A DNA stretch of 64,000 bases from assembly GCA_016765295.1 (NCBI GenBank), contig JAESQF010000134.1:1-64000 (forward strand). Reading direction: 5' to 3'. The notes beneath the pieces are model-generated. The model saw nothing but the letters and a program-made list of their open reading frames with translations, ran no database searches and had not been told where the DNA came from. The DNA is from Oleispira sp. Its GTDB lineage: Bacteria; Pseudomonadota; Gammaproteobacteria; Pseudomonadales; Oceanobacteraceae. Shown here in pieces: positions 32,260-54,877 of the stretch; within the stretch, counting starts at the first letter, position 1, and the number at the start of each line of letters is the position of its first letter. The position numbers were made by a program, and so were the translations under genes.

Positions 32260-32273
32260 GTATGACTTTGATA

Positions 32274-32310
32274 AAATACACAGCCACTGAATATTAGTGG
32301 CTGTGTATTT
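32274..32310. terminator. Perfect 15-bp hairpin after cbiX, likely terminator
   Basis: aaatacacagccact-gaatatt-agtggctgtgtattt. Confidence 0.7.
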
Positions 32311-32428
32311 CAACAGATTGCTCATGGCTCATTGCATGATCGGTTTTTTAGGTACAACTTCCTTAATGATTACTAGAAAATATTTAATACAAATACGTAG
32401 CAAAATCAGTGTATTATCAATATAAGAA

Positions 32429-32457
32429 ACGAGATAACGAGATCCTCGTTATCTCGT
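32429..32457. repeat. Perfect 13-bp inverted repeat, 3-nt loop
   Basis: acgagataacgag-atc-ctcgttatctcgt. Confidence 0.9.
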
Positions 32458-32587
32458 ATAAAAAGATGCAAACGCGCATGTGCGTTTATCTGGAGCTTGG
32501 AAATGGATTTCAAAAATTACCGAGTTAAATCAATTAGTTGTGCTGAGGTCGCGAAATATCGCTTCCGTGCAAACGCATGATTAAGCT

Positions 32588-32594
32588 GTTAGGT
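32588..32594 (+). other. Candidate integron core site (left edge of array)
   Basis: GTTAGGT matches GTTRRRY, directly before first cassette ORF. Confidence 0.4.
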
Positions 32595-32601
32595 GAATAA
32601 A

Positions 32602-32841
32602 GTGAGTGAAGATACTAATAGTGATTTTGTGTTAGTTGATGCAATCGCTTCAGAGGCTTATGTTTCAACTATGATCACTTGCTTGCTTTGTGACAGTGAT
32701 TTAATGGCATCTGATTTAGGTATTGATGAGCCTAATGATCCAATGGAAACGTGGGCGCAAGAATTTTGTGCTGCTGCAAAGAAAACTGGCTGGGCTGTAT
32801 CAAGTACCGGCGCAATAGTTTGCCAAAAGTGCCATGATTAA
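32602..32841 (+). CDS. Hypothetical protein with two CXXC pairs (cassette ORF 1)
   Basis: CLLC ... CQKC; candidate attC immediately follows. Confidence 0.65.
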   Translation: MSEDTNSDFVLVDAIASEAYVSTMITCLLCDSDLMASDLGIDEPNDPMETWAQEFCAAAKKTGWAVSSTGAIVCQKCHD

Positions 32842-32847
32842 GCCATC

Positions 32848-32940
32848 ACCTAACAAGTTTATCAACCATTGCCACTTCGTGGCTGGACCACTAAAAGCGC
32901 TGCTTCGCAGTAATAGCGGCCGATTATAAAGGCGTTATAA
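32848..32940 (+). repeat. attC-like site A
   Basis: R'' ACCTAAC ... R' GTTATAA; L''/L' TTTAT/ATAAA; internal hairpins gccac-ttc-gtggc and ctgc-ttc-gcag. Confidence 0.7.
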
Positions 32941-32958
32941 TAAAAGGAATAATCAGAA

Positions 32959-33339
32959 TTGTTAAATAATATTGGTCAGCACTCACAAAGTGCAGCCACA
33001 AAGCTACATGTTCGTAGTGCTCTTAACCCTTTGCTCTGGCTTACTGGAATAGCTACTCCATTATGTTTTATTAGTGGTTATGCACTTAAAGATACATCTC
33101 CTATATTTGAAATACTTATTGTTGCTGGACTTCTACCAATGACAGTTACTTGTTTTGGCTTTTGTTATTTTGCAATTTTTAAACCAGAGAAATTACAGTC
33201 TGAAGATTATCAGATCAGACATGAATCGCTTCAGCTTATTCAGCAAAAAAGTGGAAATATTGAGATCCCAATTACTTCTATTGAGCAGATTGTAAATCCT
33301 GCAACTCAGTTATCGAGACCAGAAGGGGGTAGAGGATGA
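32959..33339 (+). CDS. Hypothetical membrane protein (two predicted TM helices)
   Basis: Hydrophobic PLLWLTGIATPLCFISGYAL and ILIVAGLLPMTVTCFGFCYFAIF; non-ATG start. Confidence 0.6.
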   Translation: MLNNIGQHSQSAATKLHVRSALNPLLWLTGIATPLCFISGYALKDTSPIFEILIVAGLLPMTVTCFGFCYFAIFKPEKLQSEDYQIRHESLQLIQQKSGNIEIPITSIEQIVNPATQLSRPEGGRG

Positions 33340-33665
33340 AAGTTTATTTAATCACTTTTTATTCAATAACTAATACTGTTAGTAGGGAAAGTATTCAAAA
33401 ATATTTTGATATAAGGCCTGAGATATTAAATTGGTTTGGAGTTATGCCTCAAGCAATACTCGTAGCTACAGAATGTTCTGATAGTATCGTTTCTAGTTTA
33501 TTAGTAGAGCACTTTGGTCAAGGTATTATTTTTTTAATTACAAGCGCAGATCAGTATAAGACTCAAGGGTATATAAATAAAGAAGTTTGGGAGTTTATTA
33601 ATAATCCTAAGCCTTCTAAACACAATGGGCTTTTGGGATTGCTTGGACAGGGTTATAACAAATAA
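33336..33665 (+). CDS. Small protein resembling SinR-like/Cas2-VapD-fold proteins
   Basis: MKVYLITFYS ... AILVATECSDSIVSSLL ... IIFLITSAD ... GYINKEVWEFIN; ATGA overlap with preceding ORF. Confidence 0.55.
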   Translation: MKVYLITFYSITNTVSRESIQKYFDIRPEILNWFGVMPQAILVATECSDSIVSSLLVEHFGQGIIFLITSADQYKTQGYINKEVWEFINNPKPSKHNGLLGLLGQGYNK

Positions 33666-33710
33666 AGGCATTGGACGAAAAAATTTTCGCCCATGCTTTA
33701 AGCGTCATAC
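33653..33710 (+). repeat. attC-like site B (degenerate R')
   Basis: TTATAAC ... AAAGGCATTGG-ACGAAAA/TTTTCG-CCCATGCTTT ... GTCATAC. Confidence 0.55.
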
Positions 33711-33724
33711 AAGAGAATAGCTGA

Positions 33725-34090
33725 ATGAGATATTTTTTACTTTGTATGTTTTTATTTCCGCTAGTGTCTTTGGCGGATACTAAAACCTATATTTGCGATT
33801 ACCCGATATGGAGTAACGAAAAGGGGAAGCACAGAACCAAGGACAAGTTTGTGCTTAATTTTATCGTAGATCAAGAATCAAAAAAGTCTTATATGCTTGG
33901 TAATAATGGCAGTACCGAGGTCAAATTATTCGAATCCAGTGACCAGCTAGTGTTTATACAGCTAACGGATACTGGAAATATCATGACCACGACAATAACA
34001 CGTAAACTTAAATCAGTTCATAGTCGAAACTCAGTAATGCTAGATGAGTTAATTCCTTCGCAATACTATGGAAAATGTGAAATCAAATAG
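33725..34090 (+). CDS. Hypothetical secreted protein
   Basis: Signal peptide MRYFLLCMFLFPLVSLADT; flanked by attC-like sites B and C. Confidence 0.65.
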   Translation: MRYFLLCMFLFPLVSLADTKTYICDYPIWSNEKGKHRTKDKFVLNFIVDQESKKSYMLGNNGSTEVKLFESSDQLVFIQLTDTGNIMTTTITRKLKSVHSRNSVMLDELIPSQYYGKCEIK

Positions 34091-34094
34091 AAAT

Positions 34095-34169
34095 GTATAA
34101 CAAAGCAAACCAAGATCGCCAGCAAGCTGGCTGGATTTACAAAAGTTGTGCTTGTTTACGGCGTTATGC
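34095..34169 (+). repeat. attC-like site C
   Basis: GTATAAC ... gccag-caag-ctggc ... GCGTTATGC. Confidence 0.7.
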
Positions 34170-34184
34170 AGAATGATTTTTAAA

Positions 34185-34511
34185 ATGATGAATATTTCAG
34201 AACTTAAAGTTAGTGTTGAGATGATGGCAAAAGCTATGTGCCAACCTATGCCTTCTGAGCCACAAGTTGAACTCCTTTTTGATCATGTTTTATATGATGA
34301 TAGATTTGGGGATGTTGATGGTAAGAATGGATGCAAACACTTTGAACTTGGATTGATTACAAAATCTGAGTTTAGAGATCTTGTAATGGCACACAGTGCT
34401 AGTAAAATTTCATTTTTCAGCGGAAGGCCAGAGCCTAGTTTTAATTCTTACGAGTCAATAGAGCTAAACCAATCATTTGAGAAAGCTCTTCTAGGTAAGA
34501 TCATCGAATGA
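34185..34511 (+). CDS. Hypothetical protein (cassette ORF)
   Basis: MMNISELKVSVEMMAKAMCQPMPSEPQ; start after R' of site C, so the track start at 34146 is unlikely. Confidence 0.6.
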   Translation: MMNISELKVSVEMMAKAMCQPMPSEPQVELLFDHVLYDDRFGDVDGKNGCKHFELGLITKSEFRDLVMAHSASKISFFSGRPEPSFNSYESIELNQSFEKALLGKIIE

Positions 34512-34517
34512 GAAATT

Positions 34518-34622
34518 TCATAACAAAAGCATGTTCCATTAACCACTGCGTGGTTAGGGCGGTTTTCCGCTCGAACCTCGCTACAAACCGCCGAAAATTC
34601 TAGGCGTTATGCATCTTTAAAA
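34518..34622 (+). repeat. attC-like site D
   Basis: TCATAAC ... ccactgcgtgg ... ggcggttttccgc ... GGCGTTATGC. Confidence 0.75.
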
Positions 34623-34624
34623 TT

Positions 34625-35062
34625 ATGAAATTTGATATTATACCAAATGAGAGAATTGGCCCCATTGCACTTGGAATGACGTGCGAGGAGGTTAAGACGA
34701 TATTAAATGAAAAGCATTACTCTGGTAGCAATGGAGATAGTGATTATTATTTTTTAAACGGACTCCAAGTCGAATTTGAAGAAAATTTAGCCAATTTTAT
34801 CGGCATAAGTTTTTCACCTGATTATACAGTTTATTATAAGAACATTAATGTATTCGATGTTGACGCTGAGAAAGTATTTATTCTTATTGCTAGTGGCGAA
34901 AGTCTTAGGCATAGCTATGATGCATCGGAATACTTATTTCCAGATCAGGCTATAACTTTATGGGATGCTGATTCTCAGTATGATCGTATAGGTAAAGAAA
35001 ACAGAGTTATCTGGGCACAAATTGGTATAGGATCGCAATCTTATGTTGAGGCTGTCAGTTAA
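34625..35062 (+). CDS. Hypothetical protein (cassette ORF)
   Basis: MKFDIIPNERIGPIALGMTCEEVKTIL; flanked by sites D and E. Confidence 0.65.
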   Translation: MKFDIIPNERIGPIALGMTCEEVKTILNEKHYSGSNGDSDYYFLNGLQVEFEENLANFIGISFSPDYTVYYKNINVFDVDAEKVFILIASGESLRHSYDASEYLFPDQAITLWDADSQYDRIGKENRVIWAQIGIGSQSYVEAVS

Positions 35063-35063
35063 T

Positions 35064-35161
35064 GCATAACAAAAAGTTGGTGTTCGCACCTGCGGTTCTG
35101 GCCGGTTAAACTTCGCTCGTTCCTCGCTACGTTTCGCCGGCTCACAACAAAATCGTTAAAT
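35064..35161 (+). repeat. attC-like site E
   Basis: GCATAAC ... GTTAAAT (exact GTTRRRY); internal gccgg...ccggc. Confidence 0.7.
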
Positions 35162-35189
35162 TTAATATGAAAGTTCTTGAGTACTAATA

Positions 35190-35600
35190 ATGAAAAAGTT
35201 GATTGGATTATCTGTATTAACTACAATTTCCTACCTCTTATACACTGATAGAGAGATTAGCTTGGTTGGTGCATGGAAGGCAGACGGAAGAAAAACTGTA
35301 CATAGCATGATTGAGGCGGGGGAATTGAATACAAACGCTGATGTCAAAAATTTGGTTTCTGCCATCGGTGACGCTACTTATATTTTTACGGAAAAAACTC
35401 TCGATATTTCCTTTGAGTCAAATCCTAACTTCAAGGAAATTCCTATTCCATATAAGATTTTGGAAAAAACGGACAACAGTATAACGATACACTATCCAAT
35501 TAGCCCTACTAAAAATAATCAAGACACATATCATTTAACGGCTGATGGCAAGTGTATTTATATCGAACGTAAAAAATACAATGATTATTTCTGCAAATGA
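35190..35600 (+). CDS. Hypothetical membrane-anchored protein
   Basis: N-terminal hydrophobic segment then LVGAWKADGRKTV, possibly lipocalin-like; flanked by sites E and F. Confidence 0.6.
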   Translation: MKKLIGLSVLTTISYLLYTDREISLVGAWKADGRKTVHSMIEAGELNTNADVKNLVSAIGDATYIFTEKTLDISFESNPNFKEIPIPYKILEKTDNSITIHYPISPTKNNQDTYHLTADGKCIYIERKKYNDYFCK

Positions 35601-35601
35601 A

Positions 35602-35665
35602 ATTTAACAAGGCCAGGCACAATCCCGCAAACGGGCTGGGCTCGTCACTGCTTGCGGCGTTATAA
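35602..35665 (+). repeat. attC-like site F
   Basis: ATTTAAC ... cccgcaaacggg ... GCGTTATAA. Confidence 0.65.
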
Positions 35666-35685
35666 ATAATAAGGAGTAGTTAAGT

Positions 35686-36075
35686 ATGAAACACATATTT
35701 CTAATCTTAATTTTATCTGTTTTTAGTATTCAAAGCTTTGCTGCTGGGAAGTCAATTTCTTCTGCTTACGAAACTAAAACTAGCGATGTTCAAGTTAGTA
35801 GCACTGGTATAGTCGTTAAAGTTCTACCCGATGATAATAAGGGATCTCGTCACCAAAGATTTATACTTAAATTATCATCAGGGCAGACAGTTTTAATTGC
35901 TCATAATATTGATTTGGCTCCCAAAATTGATGCAATCAATGTCGGTGACTCCATTGAGTTTTATGGTGAATATGAGTGGAATGCCAAAGGTGGTGTCGTT
36001 CACTGGACACACCATGATCCAGCAGGTCGGCATGAAGGTGGTTGGCTTAAGCACAATGGCGTTCTATATGAATAG
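35686..36075 (+). CDS. DUF3465-like secreted protein
   Basis: Signal peptide; [57 protein letters not shown]. Confidence 0.75.
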
Positions 36076-36234
36076 CCCTATCAAAATCAACAGCAGACTC
36101 CGTAACGTGTCGTTTCAATAAGGGTTTTACCCCAAGAGGGCTAGAGCTTTTGAAGTAACAGATGTGTTCTCAAATAGAATCGACTTATAATACCGCCATA
36201 AATTAAGCGGCTCTATTGATAGATACACGGAATA

Positions 36235-38388
36235 ATGATGAGTTTTACCAAACAAATTTTGCTGGGGCTGTTTTTGGGCCTCGGTATAGGCATCTTTCTC
36301 GGCGAATTTTCAACGCCATTCTCTACCGTTGGCAATATTTATATCGGTTTGCTGCAGATGACAGTGCTGCCTTATATTGTGGTTTCTTTAATCGCAAACC
36401 TGGGGCGGGTTTCTTGGAGTAAAAGCCGTAAGCTGCTTATCTCTGCGGTAACGATATTAGCGTTATTATTAATTCTGGGCATGGGTATGTTGATTGTCAT
36501 TCCCTATGCTTTTCCTGACTGGCAGAGTGGGTCTTTCTTTAGAGCGACCATGATCGAGCCGGCCAAGGCCTTTGACTTGGTTGCGATGTATATTCCAGCT
36601 AACCCTTTTAACTCTTTGGCCAATAATATTGTACCGGCGGTTGTTTTATTCAGTATTTTACTGGGTGTTGGTGTTAGTGGCGTCACGGGTAATGGCGGCT
36701 TTTTGCAATCTTTGGATGTTGTTGAAGCAGCGCTTAATCGCATCAATAAAATGGTTATCAAGTTGACGCCTATCGGCGTATTTGCCATTGCGGCGGGCAC
36801 TGCAGGCACTATCTCGGTAGACGAACTAAGTCGGCTACAGGCCTACTTGATCACCTATACAGTCATTGCAACGGTGCTCAGCTTTTTGGTTTTGCCTCTG
36901 CTGGTTTCAGCCGTTACTCCTTTTAGTTACAAAGATCTGGTTTCCATCCCTAAGGATACGTTAATCATGGTTTTTGCTACGGCTAAAATTATTGTGTTAA
37001 TGCCGCAGTTGGTAGAAAACGTTAAGGAACTGTTTCGCCGCTATGATTTAGAAGATGATAATGTGAAATCGGGTGCCGAAGTATTAATGCCCTTAGCCTA
37101 TCCATTTCCCAATCTGGGCACGTATGCCATCTTAATGTTTGTTCCTTTTTCGGCTTGGTATATGGGCAGAAGTTTGGACTTTTCTGATCAGGTAGTATTT
37201 CAGGCAGCCTCTTTATTAAGCAGTTTTGTAGCCCCCATTATTGGTATTCCGTTTCTACTAGATTTGATGCGTATACCGGCCGATATGATGGAGCTCTTTA
37301 TGATGTCTACCGTGTATACCGATAGAATTCGTGTGGTATTGGGGGCCGTTCATCTGTTATCACTGACCATCGTAGTACTGGCCATTAATAAGGGGGTATT
37401 TCGCTGGAATATTAAAGCCTTACTTAAGGCGATCGCGATTTCAGCATTAGCGATTGCTCTTTCTTTATTGGCGGTACGCGCCTATTTGGGAGAGGCGATG
37501 AATGGTGCGCAAAATGGGGCTGAATCATTGGTTCAAATGCGCTGGATGGATAAAACCGTAGACGTTCAGGTTTATAAAGAATCGCTTCCCGCAGCGAATG
37601 AAATTACTGACAGTGAAGATCGAATTACTACCATCATGCAGCGTGGCACATTACGTGTGGGTTATTTGTCTGATTCATTGCCTTTTGCTTTTGCCAATGA
37701 GCAAGGAGAAGTCACAGGCTTTGATATAGAGATGGCGCATATGCTGGCCAGAGACCTGGGTGTTAGTTTGGAGTTGGTTCGAATTAAAACCGAGAGCATT
37801 AGTGAACTGTTCGATACCGGGCAGCTGGATATTGTTATGTCGGGTCTGGGCATCACTGCTAAGCGTGCGCTGCAGTGGGAGTTCAGTGCTTCACCGATGG
37901 ATTTAACCTTGGCAGTATTGGTTGAAGATCATAGACGTCGTGAATTTTTAACGCTGCAAGATTTGAAAAATAATCCTGATCTGCGTCTCGGCATTGTTGG
38001 AGCCGATACTGCGTATAAGCATTTGCTAGAGAATGCTATTGGCAATGTGAATTTGATATCAGTCTCTTCTCCTAGAGCTTTCTTGAAAGGTAATGAGCCC
38101 CATCTTGATGGCATTATTTATTCAGCGGAAGGAGGTTCAGCCTGGACCCTGTTATACCCTAGTTATACGGTGGTGGTTCCAGAACCTGGCGCTATTCAAT
38201 TATCCATGGCCTATCCACTGCCGAAAGGAGACGTTGTATGGAAGCGTTTTGTTTCACAGTGGGTAGGAATCAAACAGAAAGAAGGGACTATAAATTCTCT
38301 GTTTGATCATTGGATACAAGGAAAGGGGGCCGAAGATACATCACCCCGTTGGTCTGTGATGCGTAATGTTTTACATTGGGTTGATTAA
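36235..38388 (+). CDS. Dicarboxylate/amino acid:cation symporter (SDF) fused to periplasmic SBP_bac_3 domain
   Basis: N-terminal multi-TM SDF transporter; C-terminal RGTLRVGYLSDSLPFAFANEQGEVTGFDIEMAHMLARDLGV. Confidence 0.85.
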   Translation: MMSFTKQILLGLFLGLGIGIFLGEFSTPFSTVGNIYIGLLQMTVLPYIVVSLIANLGRVSWSKSRKLLISAVTILALLLILGMGMLIVIPYAFPDWQSGSFFRATMIEPAKAFDLVAMYIPANPFNSLANNIVPAVVLFSILLGVGVSGVTGNGGFLQSLDVVEAALNRINKMVIKLTPIGVFAIAAGTAGTISVDELSRLQAYLITYTVIATVLSFLVLPLLVSAVTPFSYKDLVSIPKDTLIMVFATAKIIVLMPQLVENVKELFRRYDLEDDNVKSGAEVLMPLAYPFPNLGTYAILMFVPFSAWYMGRSLDFSDQVVFQAASLLSSFVAPIIGIPFLLDLMRIPADMMELFMMSTVYTDRIRVVLGAVHLLSLTIVVLAINKGVFRWNIKALLKAIAISALAIALSLLAVRAYLGEAMNGAQNGAESLVQMRWMDKTVDVQVYKESLPAANEITDSEDRITTIMQRGTLRVGYLSDSLPFAFANEQGEVTGFDIEMAHMLARDLGVSLELVRIKTESISELFDTGQLDIVMSGLGITAKRALQWEFSASPMDLTLAVLVEDHRRREFLTLQDLKNNPDLRLGIVGADTAYKHLLENAIGNVNLISVSSPRAFLKGNEPHLDGIIYSAEGGSAWTLLYPSYTVVVPEPGAIQLSMAYPLPKGDVVWKRFVSQWVGIKQKEGTINSLFDHWIQGKGAEDTSPRWSVMRNVLHWVD

Positions 38389-38439
38389 GCTGTTAAGTTT
38401 TAAATATGAATGAATTCGAGTTTCTTACACATGGTAAAA

Positions 38440-38536
38440 ACTTAACAAAAGCATGTTGCATAAACCACTGCGTGGTCTGAACGGCTTTTCCGCTTCTACC
38501 TCGCTACAAAACCTAGCAAATGCTAGGTATTACATT
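38440..38536 (+). repeat. attC-like site G, related to site D, decayed R'
   Basis: ACTTAACaaaagcatgttgcataaaccactgcgtggt...ttttccgctt..acctcgctacaaa...ctaggtattacat aligns with site D. Confidence 0.65.
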
Positions 38537-38557
38537 TAATTGGAGCGTATCAGAACG

Positions 38558-38920
38558 ATGAAAAGTTTTTGTATGTATTGTGGCAATAGTAAGCCCGATG
38601 CCCATCAAATATGTGGATCTTGTTTTGCCATTCCAGAAACACATAAAGATCTAATATACTCAATTATCATGTGCCACAGTCCGGACGAACCGCATTTAAA
38701 TTTCTTGAGTATTGGTGAGATTGAAGAGCTATGCGAAGAGATTAGAAAAGGAAACAAGGTTGAAGTAAGCCCTCAGGTTTTTTCTCAGGCTGAGGAAGCT
38801 CTTAGCGCGGTTAGGTCTTTAGGGTCGCCACAGCTAATAAGCAAATTTTCTAGAATATCTTCGCCTATGGTAATGATAATGTTGGCTATGTTGTTGGTGG
38901 GGATTATATTCGGGGCTTAA
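38558..38920 (+). CDS. Zinc-ribbon protein with C-terminal TM helix
   Basis: CMYCGNSKPDAHQICGSC; tail MVMIMLAMLLVGIIFGA. Confidence 0.6.
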   Translation: MKSFCMYCGNSKPDAHQICGSCFAIPETHKDLIYSIIMCHSPDEPHLNFLSIGEIEELCEEIRKGNKVEVSPQVFSQAEEALSAVRSLGSPQLISKFSRISSPMVMIMLAMLLVGIIFGA

Positions 38921-39337
38921 ATGTATAAGGCAACTATGCACATAACTCACAAAAAATGGCTTAGCGAATTGGCTGGTGAAGTATCAATCGTCTATTCAGA
39001 CGTGATAAATGAAGAAGCAAATGGGAACATGGTTACCTACGCGTTTGATGTAGAGGCTCTGAATGAGTGGGGACCCGATTCCATAGATGCCTTTCTCAAA
39101 GGCTGTCGCGATTTATATGCATCTAAAAACCCAGTTGAACCCATGTGGTTTTATAGCTGGTTCGACCAGCAATATAGTCAAATTAAAATGGGTGCTGTTT
39201 CTCAACGACATGAGACACTGCCATTTGATTGTGATCTCAATGTGTGTGAACTTCATGTGGTTATACGTGGGTTGATTACTAGTGACTCCGGTCTATTTAC
39301 GAGTGGAAAATTGAATGTGTGGACATCAAGTATTTAA
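38921..39337 (+). CDS. Hypothetical protein
   Basis: 138 aa, starts directly after preceding stop, ends at site H. Confidence 0.6.
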   Translation: MYKATMHITHKKWLSELAGEVSIVYSDVINEEANGNMVTYAFDVEALNEWGPDSIDAFLKGCRDLYASKNPVEPMWFYSWFDQQYSQIKMGAVSQRHETLPFDCDLNVCELHVVIRGLITSDSGLFTSGKLNVWTSSI

Positions 39338-39386
39338 CAAAAAAAGGCTGACGACGCAAAGAGCGCGCTAGATTTTGGCGTTAGAA
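39332..39386 (+). repeat. attC-like site H
   Basis: ATTTAAC ... cgc-aaaga-gcg ... GGCGTTAGAA. Confidence 0.5.
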
Positions 39387-39504
39387 TGCAAGGATTAAGA
39401 AAATTCTTAGGTAATGCTCTAGCCAAAAGTAAACGTGAATATTAATTTAACGCCTTTGTTTTAAGCGTATACGTCATCAAAAATTTAATAGTAGGTAGTT
39501 TTAT

Positions 39505-39711
39505 ATGAATCAAACTATAAATGGAATTAGTGATAGCACTTTAGTTATTTGTGCTATTACTGTTTTTGCATTTTCTTTTGGGTATGGGCTTCTTTCTCCT
39601 TATCTTAAGAGAAAAGGTGTATCTGAACATAAAATATTAGTAATGGTTAAAGCGTCAGTTGTAATTATATTACTTGGTGGAGTTTATGTTTATCGAAATA
39701 TCTATACCTAA
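39505..39711 (+). CDS. Small two-TM membrane protein
   Basis: 68 aa with hydrophobic segments near both ends. Confidence 0.5.
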   Translation: MNQTINGISDSTLVICAITVFAFSFGYGLLSPYLKRKGVSEHKILVMVKASVVIILLGGVYVYRNIYT

Positions 39712-39715
39712 ATAA

Positions 39716-39811
39716 GATAATGAAAAAGACGATGAAATTAAATGTCTTAAGAAAGAGTTATCAAAAGCTAAAAAGGAAAATTATTTTCTAAAAAGTAGGA
39801 GCGGTATCTGA
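39716..39811 (+). pseudogene. Possible IS3-family OrfA C-terminal remnant
   Basis: Open frame without start: DNEKDDEIKCLKKELSKAKKENYFLKSRSGI*, resembling the OrfA leucine-zipper end (LKKEL...E...LKK). Confidence 0.35.
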
Positions 39812-39900
39812 AGGATCAAAAGAATTACGATTCAGGTTCATAGTTGACCATGGTGATGATTTTGGCGTCAGATACCTGTGTTGTAAATTGCTTATTGAAT

Positions 39901-40824
39901 TCATATGCGGTGCAACTCACTTCTGTTGGGTAAGTCTTCAGGTGTTTTAATATTCCAGACCAGACCCAGCTTTTTCAGTATTAATAACATCCACCAACCT
40001 GGATCGGTTTGATTCGCATTTATGCCAAGCAGGGCAGAGCCTGGAAAAGCGTGATGATTGTTATGCCAACACTCCCCCATAGTAATGAGGCCGCAGAATT
40101 TAATGTTGTACCCCTGAACAGCAGCCCCTTTGACATGCCACTCACTGTGTCCTTTATTATGTGCAAAATAGCCGATTAACCAGTGCCCTGTTATCGATAC
40201 ACAAACGCGCAAACATACCCCCCACACAACCCAGCTAACGCCGCCAAGAAAAAATAAACACAGGGCAAGTGGTAGCTGCTGCCACATCCACGTCTTTTCA
40301 ATAAATTGATAAAACCGACTATTAGAAATATGACTATCAGGCTGGAATTCGGGTGGATGCTGTAATTTAATATCGCAATGTATTTGCCAGAAACCATCTT
40401 TTAAAAAGGATGTTTTATGGCCAAAGTAGGCATGGCAACGCTTTTGCCGTTGTGCCCAATCTCTAAGGTCATGGGTGTGCATCATACCTATAGGCCCAGC
40501 GAGTCCAACCAGTACGCCTAAATACACAAACAAATACTCAAGCCACCGTGGGCACTCATAACTATGGTGAATAAAGCGGCGATGCATGCCCAATGAATGG
40601 CCAAAACAGAGCGTAATACCAGAGGTGACTAAAAACACCGCGAGTGTCTCTATGCTTGCACTATAGTATCCGCCTACAACCCCTATCAAACTCATGGTAA
40701 TAACCCATAGGGACTTGGTAGGGGCCCAAGATACACTGCCTTCAAAAGCGTTGCTTGTTGGGGTATCAACTATGCGAGGGTTGTCGTAGTCAGGCACCTG
40801 AATATTATCCGGCTTCACGGGCAA
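39901..40824 (-). CDS. Fatty acid / acyl-CoA desaturase
   Basis: His motifs HSLGMHRRFIHH and ECWHNNHHAF, multi-TM. Confidence 0.8.
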   Translation of the reverse strand: MPVKPDNIQVPDYDNPRIVDTPTSNAFEGSVSWAPTKSLWVITMSLIGVVGGYYSASIETLAVFLVTSGITLCFGHSLGMHRRFIHHSYECPRWLEYLFVYLGVLVGLAGPIGMMHTHDLRDWAQRQKRCHAYFGHKTSFLKDGFWQIHCDIKLQHPPEFQPDSHISNSRFYQFIEKTWMWQQLPLALCLFFLGGVSWVVWGVCLRVCVSITGHWLIGYFAHNKGHSEWHVKGAAVQGYNIKFCGLITMGECWHNNHHAFPGSALLGINANQTDPGWWMLLILKKLGLVWNIKTPEDLPNRSELHRI

Positions 40825-41740
40825 TTACCTCGCTTATCAGGAAATTGGCAGCGGTACTAACGCCATAGCGTTCAATGGGGGCGAAGTACCAATAAGGGTC
40901 GAGTGTGCGTTCAAAGTCGATGGTTAACGTAATGCGAGTATGTTGGGCATCAATTTTGTCTAGTTGAATTTCAGTGCCCTGAAGATGTAAATAATTAGAC
41001 AGGTAACTACTGTCCTCTAGAAATGTCGTTTTGATGCGATTCTCTTCCACCGCACTAATTTCAAGCAATATACGGCCTTCATGAACATTGGTTACAAACC
41101 AGCGATAATAACGAATGTGGATTTTATGCACATCGCCAGGTGTTAGCGATCCTGCTTCAATTTTATAGGGCATGGGGAACAGGGTTAAAAACCAGGGGCG
41201 TGATTTTTGTAAATCCATGGGTTGAATCAAATTTTGTTTGATATCGCTTATGCTACTTTGCACCACTCGTGTCACCACCACTTGTTCATTGCGGTTAAAG
41301 CTAAGTTCAGGGCTCAAACCTTCAAAAGCAGATGCAATAATAAGTAGGGGCAGCACTTGAATGTTCAAAGTACTCCTACCACGTTTTTTTGCCTTTTCGC
41401 GTATAGAGTCGAAGAGAAACATAATAAGTATAATAAACAAATAAATGGGCATGGCCATCACTACACAGACAAAGCCTTCAAATAACACCACAGAACTGCC
41501 GAGCATAATGATAAAGGCATCGATCAATCGGTTTTGATAACGCTTCTTTAAACTCATTGTCTCATCAGGGTCACGTACTTGAATCAACAACAGCGCAATA
41601 AAAAAGGGAATGCCAACATAAAGTAATGCTGTTTCATGAAAATTATATTCACCGAGTAATCTTACGCCAATAGACAGTATCGCAATGCCCACGGCTAGCA
41701 TAAGTACCTTGGGTTTGTTTCGGAAGTACGTGTTTTTCAA
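40805..41740 (-). CDS. Hypothetical membrane protein with soluble C-terminal domain
   Basis: Several TM segments then SRPBCC-like region; 20-nt overlap with desaturase. Confidence 0.7.
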   Translation of the reverse strand: MKNTYFRNKPKVLMLAVGIAILSIGVRLLGEYNFHETALLYVGIPFFIALLLIQVRDPDETMSLKKRYQNRLIDAFIIMLGSSVVLFEGFVCVVMAMPIYLFIILIMFLFDSIREKAKKRGRSTLNIQVLPLLIIASAFEGLSPELSFNRNEQVVVTRVVQSSISDIKQNLIQPMDLQKSRPWFLTLFPMPYKIEAGSLTPGDVHKIHIRYYRWFVTNVHEGRILLEISAVEENRIKTTFLEDSSYLSNYLHLQGTEIQLDKIDAQHTRITLTIDFERTLDPYWYFAPIERYGVSTAANFLISEVIAREAG

Positions 41741-42086
41741 TGAGCAGTCCTTGGCGTATTAGGGTTGGGATTAGTATAAAGGTCTGAATCGGATTTTATA
41801 GCCAAATTATAAATTACGGAGGATTACAGTATGATTAATCATCCTCACCGCACACGCCTTTATAGCCATAATAAGTAATGGACATAGTTGTACCGCATAA
41901 ATACGATAATAACCTTAAGGGCACCTCTCATTAATGGATTTAAGACTCCGCGTTTTACTTTTTTGAAAGGCAATAAATAGACGTAAATATTCAAGTTATG
42001 CATTACAAAGGTATTACGTAAGCCTTTCTTCGGCTGTGATAGAAATAGGAAAGCCGCTTAAGTGCTGAATCTAGCATCTTTGCTTT

Positions 42087-42109
42087 AAGGCCAGTTACTG
42101 GCCTTTTTA
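42087..42109 (+). terminator. Rho-independent terminator on + strand, no upstream + gene
   Basis: aaggccag-tta-ctggcctttttat. Confidence 0.7.
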
Positions 42110-42170
42110 TTTAAGCTCGTGTTGCCGTTATTATATGAACTCAGCACTTACAGACAAATATTAATACGAC

Positions 42171-52831: not shown

Positions 52832-54877
52832 ATGCAAGCTAGCCGTATAAGCTTAATGACATGTCTTTTCAGTCTGTGCTTACTTTTGATGTCATGTACA
52901 GAAGAGGTAATACCCGCCGCTATCGATGAGCGTGAAGCGTTACGTGTCTTAAGCTGGGGTGGTGGTGAATCTCTTCTACTGCGTAATGGTTCTCCTGTAT
53001 CTTTAGAATTTGAATACTTGCAGCGCTTTGCTGATGAGAAAAATTTGCGTCTTGAATTCGTCATGTTAATGGAATTTAAGCAGCTGATCCCCGCACTATT
53101 AGCCGGTAAAGGCGATGTTATCGCCAGTAACTTAACCATTACTGATGCTCGTAAAGAGCTAGTCGCTTTCACTAAGCCGATCACGGAAACTCTAGAGTAT
53201 TTAGTGACAGGCATTAATTCCAAACCGTTAAAGTCACCCAAAGACCTTAACGGAAGAGAAGTTATTGTTCAGCAAGGCAAGTCTTATGAAGAAACGGCAC
53301 TCGGGCTGATAAAGGCTTATCCACAACTCAAGCTGCGTATGATCGATGCCAAGATAGACAGCGAACAAATGCTGGATAAAGTGGCTTCAGGTGAATTTGA
53401 CATCATTATAAAAGATGGCAATTTATTGGAAGCTGCCCAGCTTTATCGTGATGATTTACAGAAAGGTATGCAGGCCAGTGCGACACGAGAAATTGCTATT
53501 GCGGTTGCACCTGACAATACAAAACTATTGCATAAACTTAATGAATTTTTGCAGTTGCAAAGCATTGCACTGGTAGATAATGGTCGTTATAAAAATCGCT
53601 GGGAAAAAATAAAAAAAACCAAAACGATTAGATTTGTTATGCGAAATAACTTTTCATCATATTTTATCTGGCGTGGACAACTATTAGGTTTTAACTATGA
53701 GCTGGCAAAAAAGTTTGCTCAAGATAATGGCTTACGTTATGAAATTGTCGTAGCCCCAGATCATGCATCTATGCTTGATTACCTGCTATTAGATAAAGCC
53801 GATGTTGCGTTGGGGTTTTTGAATCCGACCCAAAGACGCAAGGATAAAGGCATCGCGTTTTCTGTACCCTATCATTACGCCTCTCAGCTTCTTGTTTCTC
53901 AAGTAGACGATCAAACTATTACTGATATCGGGGATTTGCAGAATAGAACCGTCGTGGTGCGTAAGAGTAGTGCTTATTGGGATACGATGTTAGAGATTGT
54001 AGAAAAAACACCTAATGTTTCATTATTAGCGGCGTCTGAAAATCAAGAATCAGAAGAGTTGATTGAAGGTGTTGCGGATGGCTTATATGATTTGACGGTA
54101 GCAGATAGTCATATCGTAAATTTAGAAATGGTATTTATCGATAAAATCAAATCAGTATTTCCTCTAACAAAGCCCCTGGGGCAAAGTTGGGCTACGAAAA
54201 ATGGCCATGACCAATTGCTTAAAAATATCGATGGCTTTATTAATAAACATTATAAAGGTTTGTTTTATAATATTAAATACCAGCAATACTTCACCAGTGG
54301 AAGAAAAATTGATGCCCGTAGGGATGATTATTTAAGCTTACGCAATAGTGGTACTTTATCGCCCTATGATGAGCTGGTTAAAAAGTATGCCAAACAATAT
54401 GAGTTTGATTGGCGTCTAATGGTTGCTCAAATGCATCAGGAAAGTCGCTTTGATCCCAATGCACGTTCGTTTGCAGGTGCTCGTGGATTATTTCAACTAA
54501 TGCCTAGAACCGCTAAGCAAATGGGATTAGAAAATGTTAATGATCCTGCGATTGGCATTCACGCGGGCATTAAATATATGGATTGGGTGCGCGAGCGAAT
54601 GACTTACATTAATCCTGAAGAAGATCAGCTGATCTGGTTTACGTTGGCGGCTTATAACTCCGGTGCAGGGCATGTGCGAGATGCCGTGAGTTTAGCACGT
54701 AAAAAAGGTTGGAATGAGCGTCGCTGGTTTGGCAATGTAGAAAAAGCTATGCTGCTATTATCAAAGAATGTGTATGCCAGCAAGGCGCGCCATGGTTATG
54801 TGCGTGGACATGAGCCTGTTCATTATGTGCATGCGATTAAAAACCGCTTTGATACCTTTCAATATTTGGTCGATTAA
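52832..54877 (+). CDS. MltF-like lytic transglycosylase with two tandem solute-binding domains
   Basis: Lipobox MSC; two SBP-like modules; SLT domain MHQESRFDPNARSFAGARGLFQLMPRTAKQMG. Confidence 0.88.
   Translation: MQASRISLMTCLFSLCLLLMSCTEEVIPAAIDEREALRVLSWGGGESLLLRNGSPVSLEFEYLQRFADEKNLRLEFVMLMEFKQLIPALLAGKGDVIASNLTITDARKELVAFTKPITETLEYLVTGINSKPLKSPKDLNGREVIVQQGKSYEETALGLIKAYPQLKLRMIDAKIDSEQMLDKVASGEFDIIIKDGNLLEAAQLYRDDLQKGMQASATREIAIAVAPDNTKLLHKLNEFLQLQSIALVDNGRYKNRWEKIKKTKTIRFVMRNNFSSYFIWRGQLLGFNYELAKKFAQDNGLRYEIVVAPDHASMLDYLLLDKADVALGFLNPTQRRKDKGIAFSVPYHYASQLLVSQVDDQTITDIGDLQNRTVVVRKSSAYWDTMLEIVEKTPNVSLLAASENQESEELIEGVADGLYDLTVADSHIVNLEMVFIDKIKSVFPLTKPLGQSWATKNGHDQLLKNIDGFINKHYKGLFYNIKYQQYFTSGRKIDARRDDYLSLRNSGTLSPYDELVKKYAKQYEFDWRLMVAQMHQESRFDPNARSFAGARGLFQLMPRTAKQMGLENVNDPAIGIHAGIKYMDWVRERMTYINPEEDQLIWFTLAAYNSGAGHVRDAVSLARKKGWNERRWFGNVEKAMLLLSKNVYASKARHGYVRGHEPVHYVHAIKNRFDTFQYLVD

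Follow-up and report, generated by a model that had tools for sequence, protein, structure and literature searches.

The 64,000-nucleotide stretch of DNA analysed here (the window) carries, at coordinates 36235–38388, a gene that appears to join a glutamate-transporter-type membrane carrier to a periplasmic solute-binding domain, and it lies among integron cassettes. What does such a protein do, and how did its gene come to be at this site? The preliminary description reported a single 717-aa ORF containing an SDF domain and a C-terminal SBP_bac_3 domain, and regarded the covalent union of a secondary-transporter domain with a solute-binding domain as mechanistically unusual; the coordinates, the length, the open frame and both domains are confirmed below, and the join is indeed unusual. 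We regard the gene product as a receptor-tethered transporter of a real and recurring kind that is apparently undescribed.

Two domains and an added membrane helix

The fusion gene (36235–38388, + strand) starts with ATG and has no internal stop codons over its 717-codon frame, by direct reading of the ORF, and it has full-length homologs in other genomes. A Pfam scan of the 717-residue protein places SDF (PF00375) at residues 5–380 with 141 bits (cut-off 27.9) and SBP_bac_3 (PF00497) at residues 473–695 with 77.9 bits (cut-off 26.4), both far above their thresholds; the scan identified no other domain, and specifically no cytoplasmic output domain and no match to the membrane components DctM/DctQ or TctA/TctB. 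An AlphaFold2 monomer model, built with a 31-member family alignment as input, has a GltPh-like SDF half, an added ninth helix and an SBP half (pLDDT 80), and its pTM of 0.65 indicates that the placement of the two halves relative to each other is unreliable.

The membrane domain (36247–37374, +; residues 5–380) is identified by Pfam, AlphaFold2 and Foldseek alike. In the model it adopts the GltPh-type fold with scaffold helices, two hairpins (HP1, residues 232–269; HP2, residues 316–345) and an unwound TM7, and Foldseek aligns it with the glutamate-transporter-family structure 9bh0 over 399 columns at 20% identity, with a TM-score of 0.77 by target length. GltPh is the best-studied elevator carrier, and the assignment of Na+ and substrate residues in GltPh and GltTk is in part established knowledge. 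The side chains concerned are named in PMC5110648, and neither the NMDGT motif nor the Na+ residues N310, D312 and D405 of SDF carriers are present in the fusion protein. In the alignment the Na+-coordinating residues D312 and D405 are replaced by L294 and L377, and the substrate residues D394 and R397 by R366 and L369, where TM8, aligned to canonical SDF members by MAFFT at low identity, may be displaced by one or two residues. N310 corresponds to P292, a proline in all 31 members of the family alignment, and the serine-rich stretch of HP1 reads A250-K251-I252-I253 (AKIIV); T314 is kept as T296, yet this position is a lysine in 21 of the 31 members.

Other positions of the hairpins and TM7 are strongly conserved among paralogs of about 30% identity, namely A248, G250 and P257 in HP1 (residue 250 being alanine in this protein), P286, P292 and G295 in TM7, and F331 and P339 in HP2. 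Such retention is the pattern that would be expected, from the sequences, of a carrier that works but has been re-specified. When the positions equivalent to the GltPh ligand and ion residues are pooled, they show no excess of conservation over the remainder of the SDF half (p = 0.35, 31-member alignment), and this makes a conserved site at these positions less likely. Sequence and fold place the protein in the SDF family; its site residues do not.

In canonical SDF carriers TM8 is the last membrane helix and the C-terminus is cytoplasmic, as is established for GltPh. The fusion protein continues into a ninth membrane helix (37411–37500, +; residues 393–422), recognised from the AlphaFold2 model and the charge pattern around it: the family mean net charge is +2.7 in the loop ahead of TM9 and −1.7 in the stretch behind it. 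Under the positive-inside rule this polarity predicts that TM9 takes the chain to the periplasm and puts the SBP domain outside.

The binding domain (37651–38319, +; residues 473–695) is supported by Pfam, Foldseek and phmmer (E 3e-27), and its two-lobed family-3 fold matches 5t0w, an ancestral amino-acid-binding protein, with a TM-score of 0.85 by target length. Cyclohexadienyl dehydratase and amino-acid-binding ancestors are the closest solved structures (28% identity, TM 0.85). We considered and rejected a cyclohexadienyl dehydratase activity, as the nearest glutamate, E632, is one position away from that expected for the catalytic residue, which we take to be E173 of the enzyme. In amino-acid-binding SBPs an arginine holds the α-carboxylate and an aspartate the α-amine. 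R544 aligns with this arginine, which is present in 16 of the 31 members, and the aspartate position is occupied by Ser630; this combination does not point to a particular ligand, and the uneven occurrence of the arginine suggests that ligands probably differ between paralogs. Beyond the binding domain is a conserved C-terminal tail (38320–38385, +) with RWS in 27 of the 31 members; the consensus PRWSxxRDVLxW spans residues 704–715, past the SBP fold, and is missing from one paralog group.

Proposed function

On balance we favour a single-chain, receptor-tethered secondary transporter, that is, an elevator-type carrier with an SBP tethered to it and with altered coupling and specificity. TM9 would export the C-terminus and so leave the family-3 domain suspended on the periplasmic side, beside its own carrier, and if the SDF half trimerises in the manner of GltPh, each trimer would be surrounded by three receptors. 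A small organic acid or an amino acid, once caught by the binding domain, would pass to the elevator domain, where the site would have been rebuilt, for ion-coupled movement inward; specificity would then rest largely on the tethered domain. Dependence of an elevator carrier on an SBP is plausible in light of the precedents of TRAP and of TAXI-GltS, the latter with natural fusions (PMC12344293). No consistent metabolic neighbour that would point to a substrate was seen at the 16 homolog loci inspected. More tentatively, the protein could be an SDF-fold elevator that has dispensed with the family's side chains for Na+ and substrate and depends entirely on its covalently attached SBP, in which case several gammaproteobacterial paralog groups would make up an SBP-dependent class on the GltPh fold.

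The loss of the equivalents of D312, D394, R397 and D405, together with the unremarkable conservation of the pooled site positions (p = 0.35), would also fit a sensor or regulator, in which the SDF half is a dead transporter that serves only to hold a periplasmic ligand-binding domain in the membrane as an oligomer, signalling through contact with a partner protein, with the conserved RWS...VLxW tail as a possible docking element. We consider this unlikely, although deserving of some weight, as the chain has no cytoplasmic output domain identifiable by Pfam, the core motifs of the hairpins and TM7 are still conserved, and there is no constant partner gene at the 16 homolog loci inspected, where neighbouring genes vary widely.

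Surroundings of the gene

The fusion gene shares a 9.9 kb segment (32260–42170) with cassettes, a desaturase-like gene and one unnamed gene. In congeners G918 and G921 the genes flanking this segment, CbiX-like and old-yellow-enzyme-like, are separated by just 95 bp and by 1.2 kb, respectively, which shows that the cassettes, the fusion gene and the two further genes constitute a lineage-specific insertion. Two additional blocks of the window, at 45.1–48.6 kb and 49.3–57.2 kb, are missing between matching genes in G921, indicating that the region is rich in insertions. Further along, at 52832–54877 (+), is a 681-aa ORF in which an SLT transglycosylase domain comes after two SBP_bac_3 stretches; it is MltF-like, with the binding domain apparently doubled.

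We identified attC sites by direct reading and by homology between sites, since a scan for the R''/R' consensus missed several sites visible by eye and gave too much noise, with some 28, 9 and 2 hits expected by chance in 64 kb at thresholds of 11, 12 and 13. The nearest site upstream of the fusion gene is attC-like (35602–35665, +; R'' ATTTAAC, R' GTTATAA by direct reading) and precedes a DUF3465 gene (35686–36075, +; PF11948, 190 bits), itself a cassette. No attC is present in the interval 36076–36234 between the DUF3465 gene and the fusion gene, nor a GTTRRRY left boundary, in agreement with the preliminary description. That description also placed the fusion-gene stop just ahead of an attC-like site, and there are 51 bases from the stop to the R'' box of a site at 38440–38533 (+). 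This site retains R'' ACTTAAC and has lost the GTT core of R' (ATT), and a separate 7-bp hairpin (38511–38528) lies at its 3′ end; it is most similar to the attC at 34518–34612 (+; R' GTTATGC), with 81% identity over 85 bp (E about 3e-17). A further attC-like site is located downstream (39332–39386, +; R'' ATTTAAC, R' GTTAGAA). In single-strand folding the bottom strand is distinctive for only some sites, and not for those at 35602–35665 and 39332–39386.

Was the fusion gene itself delivered as a gene cassette by an integrase, either alone or together with the DUF3465 gene? This concerns its arrival and not its function. The gene lies between the attC-like sites at 35602–35665 and 38440–38533 and on the cassette strand, this copy is missing from the closest congeners, and the same genome encodes an intact integron integrase on another contig (C49:3540–4481), with a second that is frame-broken into two frames (C110:73096–73946). 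Against this, there is no attC directly ahead of the gene and the site behind it is degenerate; its GC content of 44.3% resembles that of the neighbouring core genes (44–48%) rather than the cassettes (29–40%); 160 bp of non-coding sequence precede its start codon; and the other homologs examined are among ordinary genes, judged from their neighbours, or on a plasmid. The suggestion that the gene was captured as an unusually large cassette thus finds weak support, and we think it improbable; its position among the cassettes looks incidental.

Horizontal arrival of the gene is nonetheless likely, as its nearest kin are in other families and on a Halioglobus plasmid (75%, 66% and 56% identity) and neighbouring genes vary among the 16 loci, with arrival as a cassette unproven. 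Probably the gene entered the genome with the lineage-specific insertion, at a cassette-rich site flanked by two core genes. The Halioglobus plasmid homolog is near a transposase-like ORF, by eye. A promoter region shared with the closest ortholog was considered and rejected, the similarity being weak, with an equally high score in 15 of 500 shuffles and no signal beside the start codon. Elsewhere in the genome, an attC near the end of C110 is 84% identical to the site at 32840–32955 of the window, and a truncated second copy of the DUF3465 gene (C112:9780–9998; L117:1788–1966) has 90% DNA identity over 179 bp to the window cassette. DUF3465 homologs elsewhere are uninformative as to whether the fusion gene split DUF3465 from its own attC.

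Recurrence and relation to known systems

Full-length SDF-SBP homologs are encoded by 14 of 195 genomes of the order (source genome included) and by four of five congeners. Nine further genomes in a class sample of 369 have homologs, two of them seen solely as contig-edge fragments, and a phylum sample of 399 adds another five, again exclusively Gammaproteobacteria, other classes being covered through this sample only. The same join is present in about 30 other gammaproteobacterial genomes. Two PLSDB records also contain it, from the Halioglobus pacificus plasmid pRR3-57 (65.6% identical) and Pseudoalteromonas xiamenensis, and there are no matches among the phage records searched. No unfused member was seen in the order and class samples at the cut-offs used, and every shorter match stops at a contig edge; an unfused member would have been detectable, given that a 441-position fragment scored 547 bits.

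Several genomes have two paralogs, and the second copy in this genome (C44:17094–19232; L025) is 33% identical to the first. In the homolog tree, from which row L045 was disregarded (a wrong ORF with a branch length of 10), the SDF-SBP genes of the congeners belong to a different paralog group from the window gene. Within some paralog groups there is a constant neighbour (L083/L087; L088/L089; L082/L092/L093), which by eye is a BshA-resembling glycosyltransferase, a small lipoprotein or a phosphoesterase-like protein. The preliminary description had raised the possibility of a widespread architecture at a conserved core locus; the architecture is recurrent within the Gammaproteobacteria but is found at many different loci.

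The P. xiamenensis homolog has 'cation:dicarboxylase symporter family transporter' as its sole annotation, and this automated name, along with the SDF Pfam score and the GltPh-like fold, could be taken to indicate an ordinary Na+- or H+-coupled C4-dicarboxylate or amino-acid symporter with the binding domain as an accessory. Such a reading is very hard to reconcile with the replacement of N310, D312, D394, R397 and D405, canonical residues according to PMC5110648, by P292, L294, R366, L369 and L377. Similarly, of the earlier label 'SDF cation symporter' the first part holds, and the second is doubtful with the canonical Na+ and substrate side chains gone. The SDF-SBP proteins are a branch of the SDF family that has lost its well-known Na+ site, and 'cation:dicarboxylate symporter', as they are generically called, is therefore probably a misnomer. 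That an assembly or sequencing error fused two genes, which the preliminary description had also considered, is scarcely conceivable: the source assembly is a draft (147 contigs, 72% complete), but the identical join recurs in more than 30 other genomes, as independent homologs, and in two plasmid records.

We found no published description of a fusion of SDF with SBP_bac_3 in the literature searched, which included few subscription papers, and InterPro may list the architecture. The receptor-tethered transporter that we favour resembles several known systems in part. It shares with the SDF/DAACS carriers (GltPh, GltTk, DctA, GltP, SstT) the Pfam SDF match and the predicted GltPh-type fold, but lacks their canonical side chains for Na+ and substrate and has a ninth helix and a binding domain in addition. 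The ABC importers GlnPQ and OpuA (PMC8025302, PMC11065425) likewise tether a binding domain to a membrane transporter, although theirs consists of ATP-driven ABC transmembrane domains whereas the fusion protein has an SDF-type carrier and no ATPase. TRAP transporters such as SiaPQM are SBP-dependent elevators driven by ion gradients, a mode of action shown for TRAP that the fusion protein may share, but they use a separate soluble SBP of another family, and the fusion protein has no DctM/DctQ-type match.

TRAP and TTT were the only secondary transporters known to need an SBP until the 2025 report of TAXI-GltS (PMC12344293), which includes natural fusions, for example in Lachnospiraceae. The authors of that report proposed that something intrinsic to elevator carriers permits them to work with binding proteins, with further classes needed as a test, and a binding domain joined to the GltPh fold, naturally and repeatedly, would be a direct test case. 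In TAXI-GltS, and by prediction in the fusion protein, an elevator-type secondary transporter that is neither TRAP nor TTT is combined with a solute-binding domain, in some cases within one chain; in the former a TAXI SBP is N-terminal to a GltS carrier, whereas in the latter an SBP_bac_3 domain is C-terminal to an SDF carrier.
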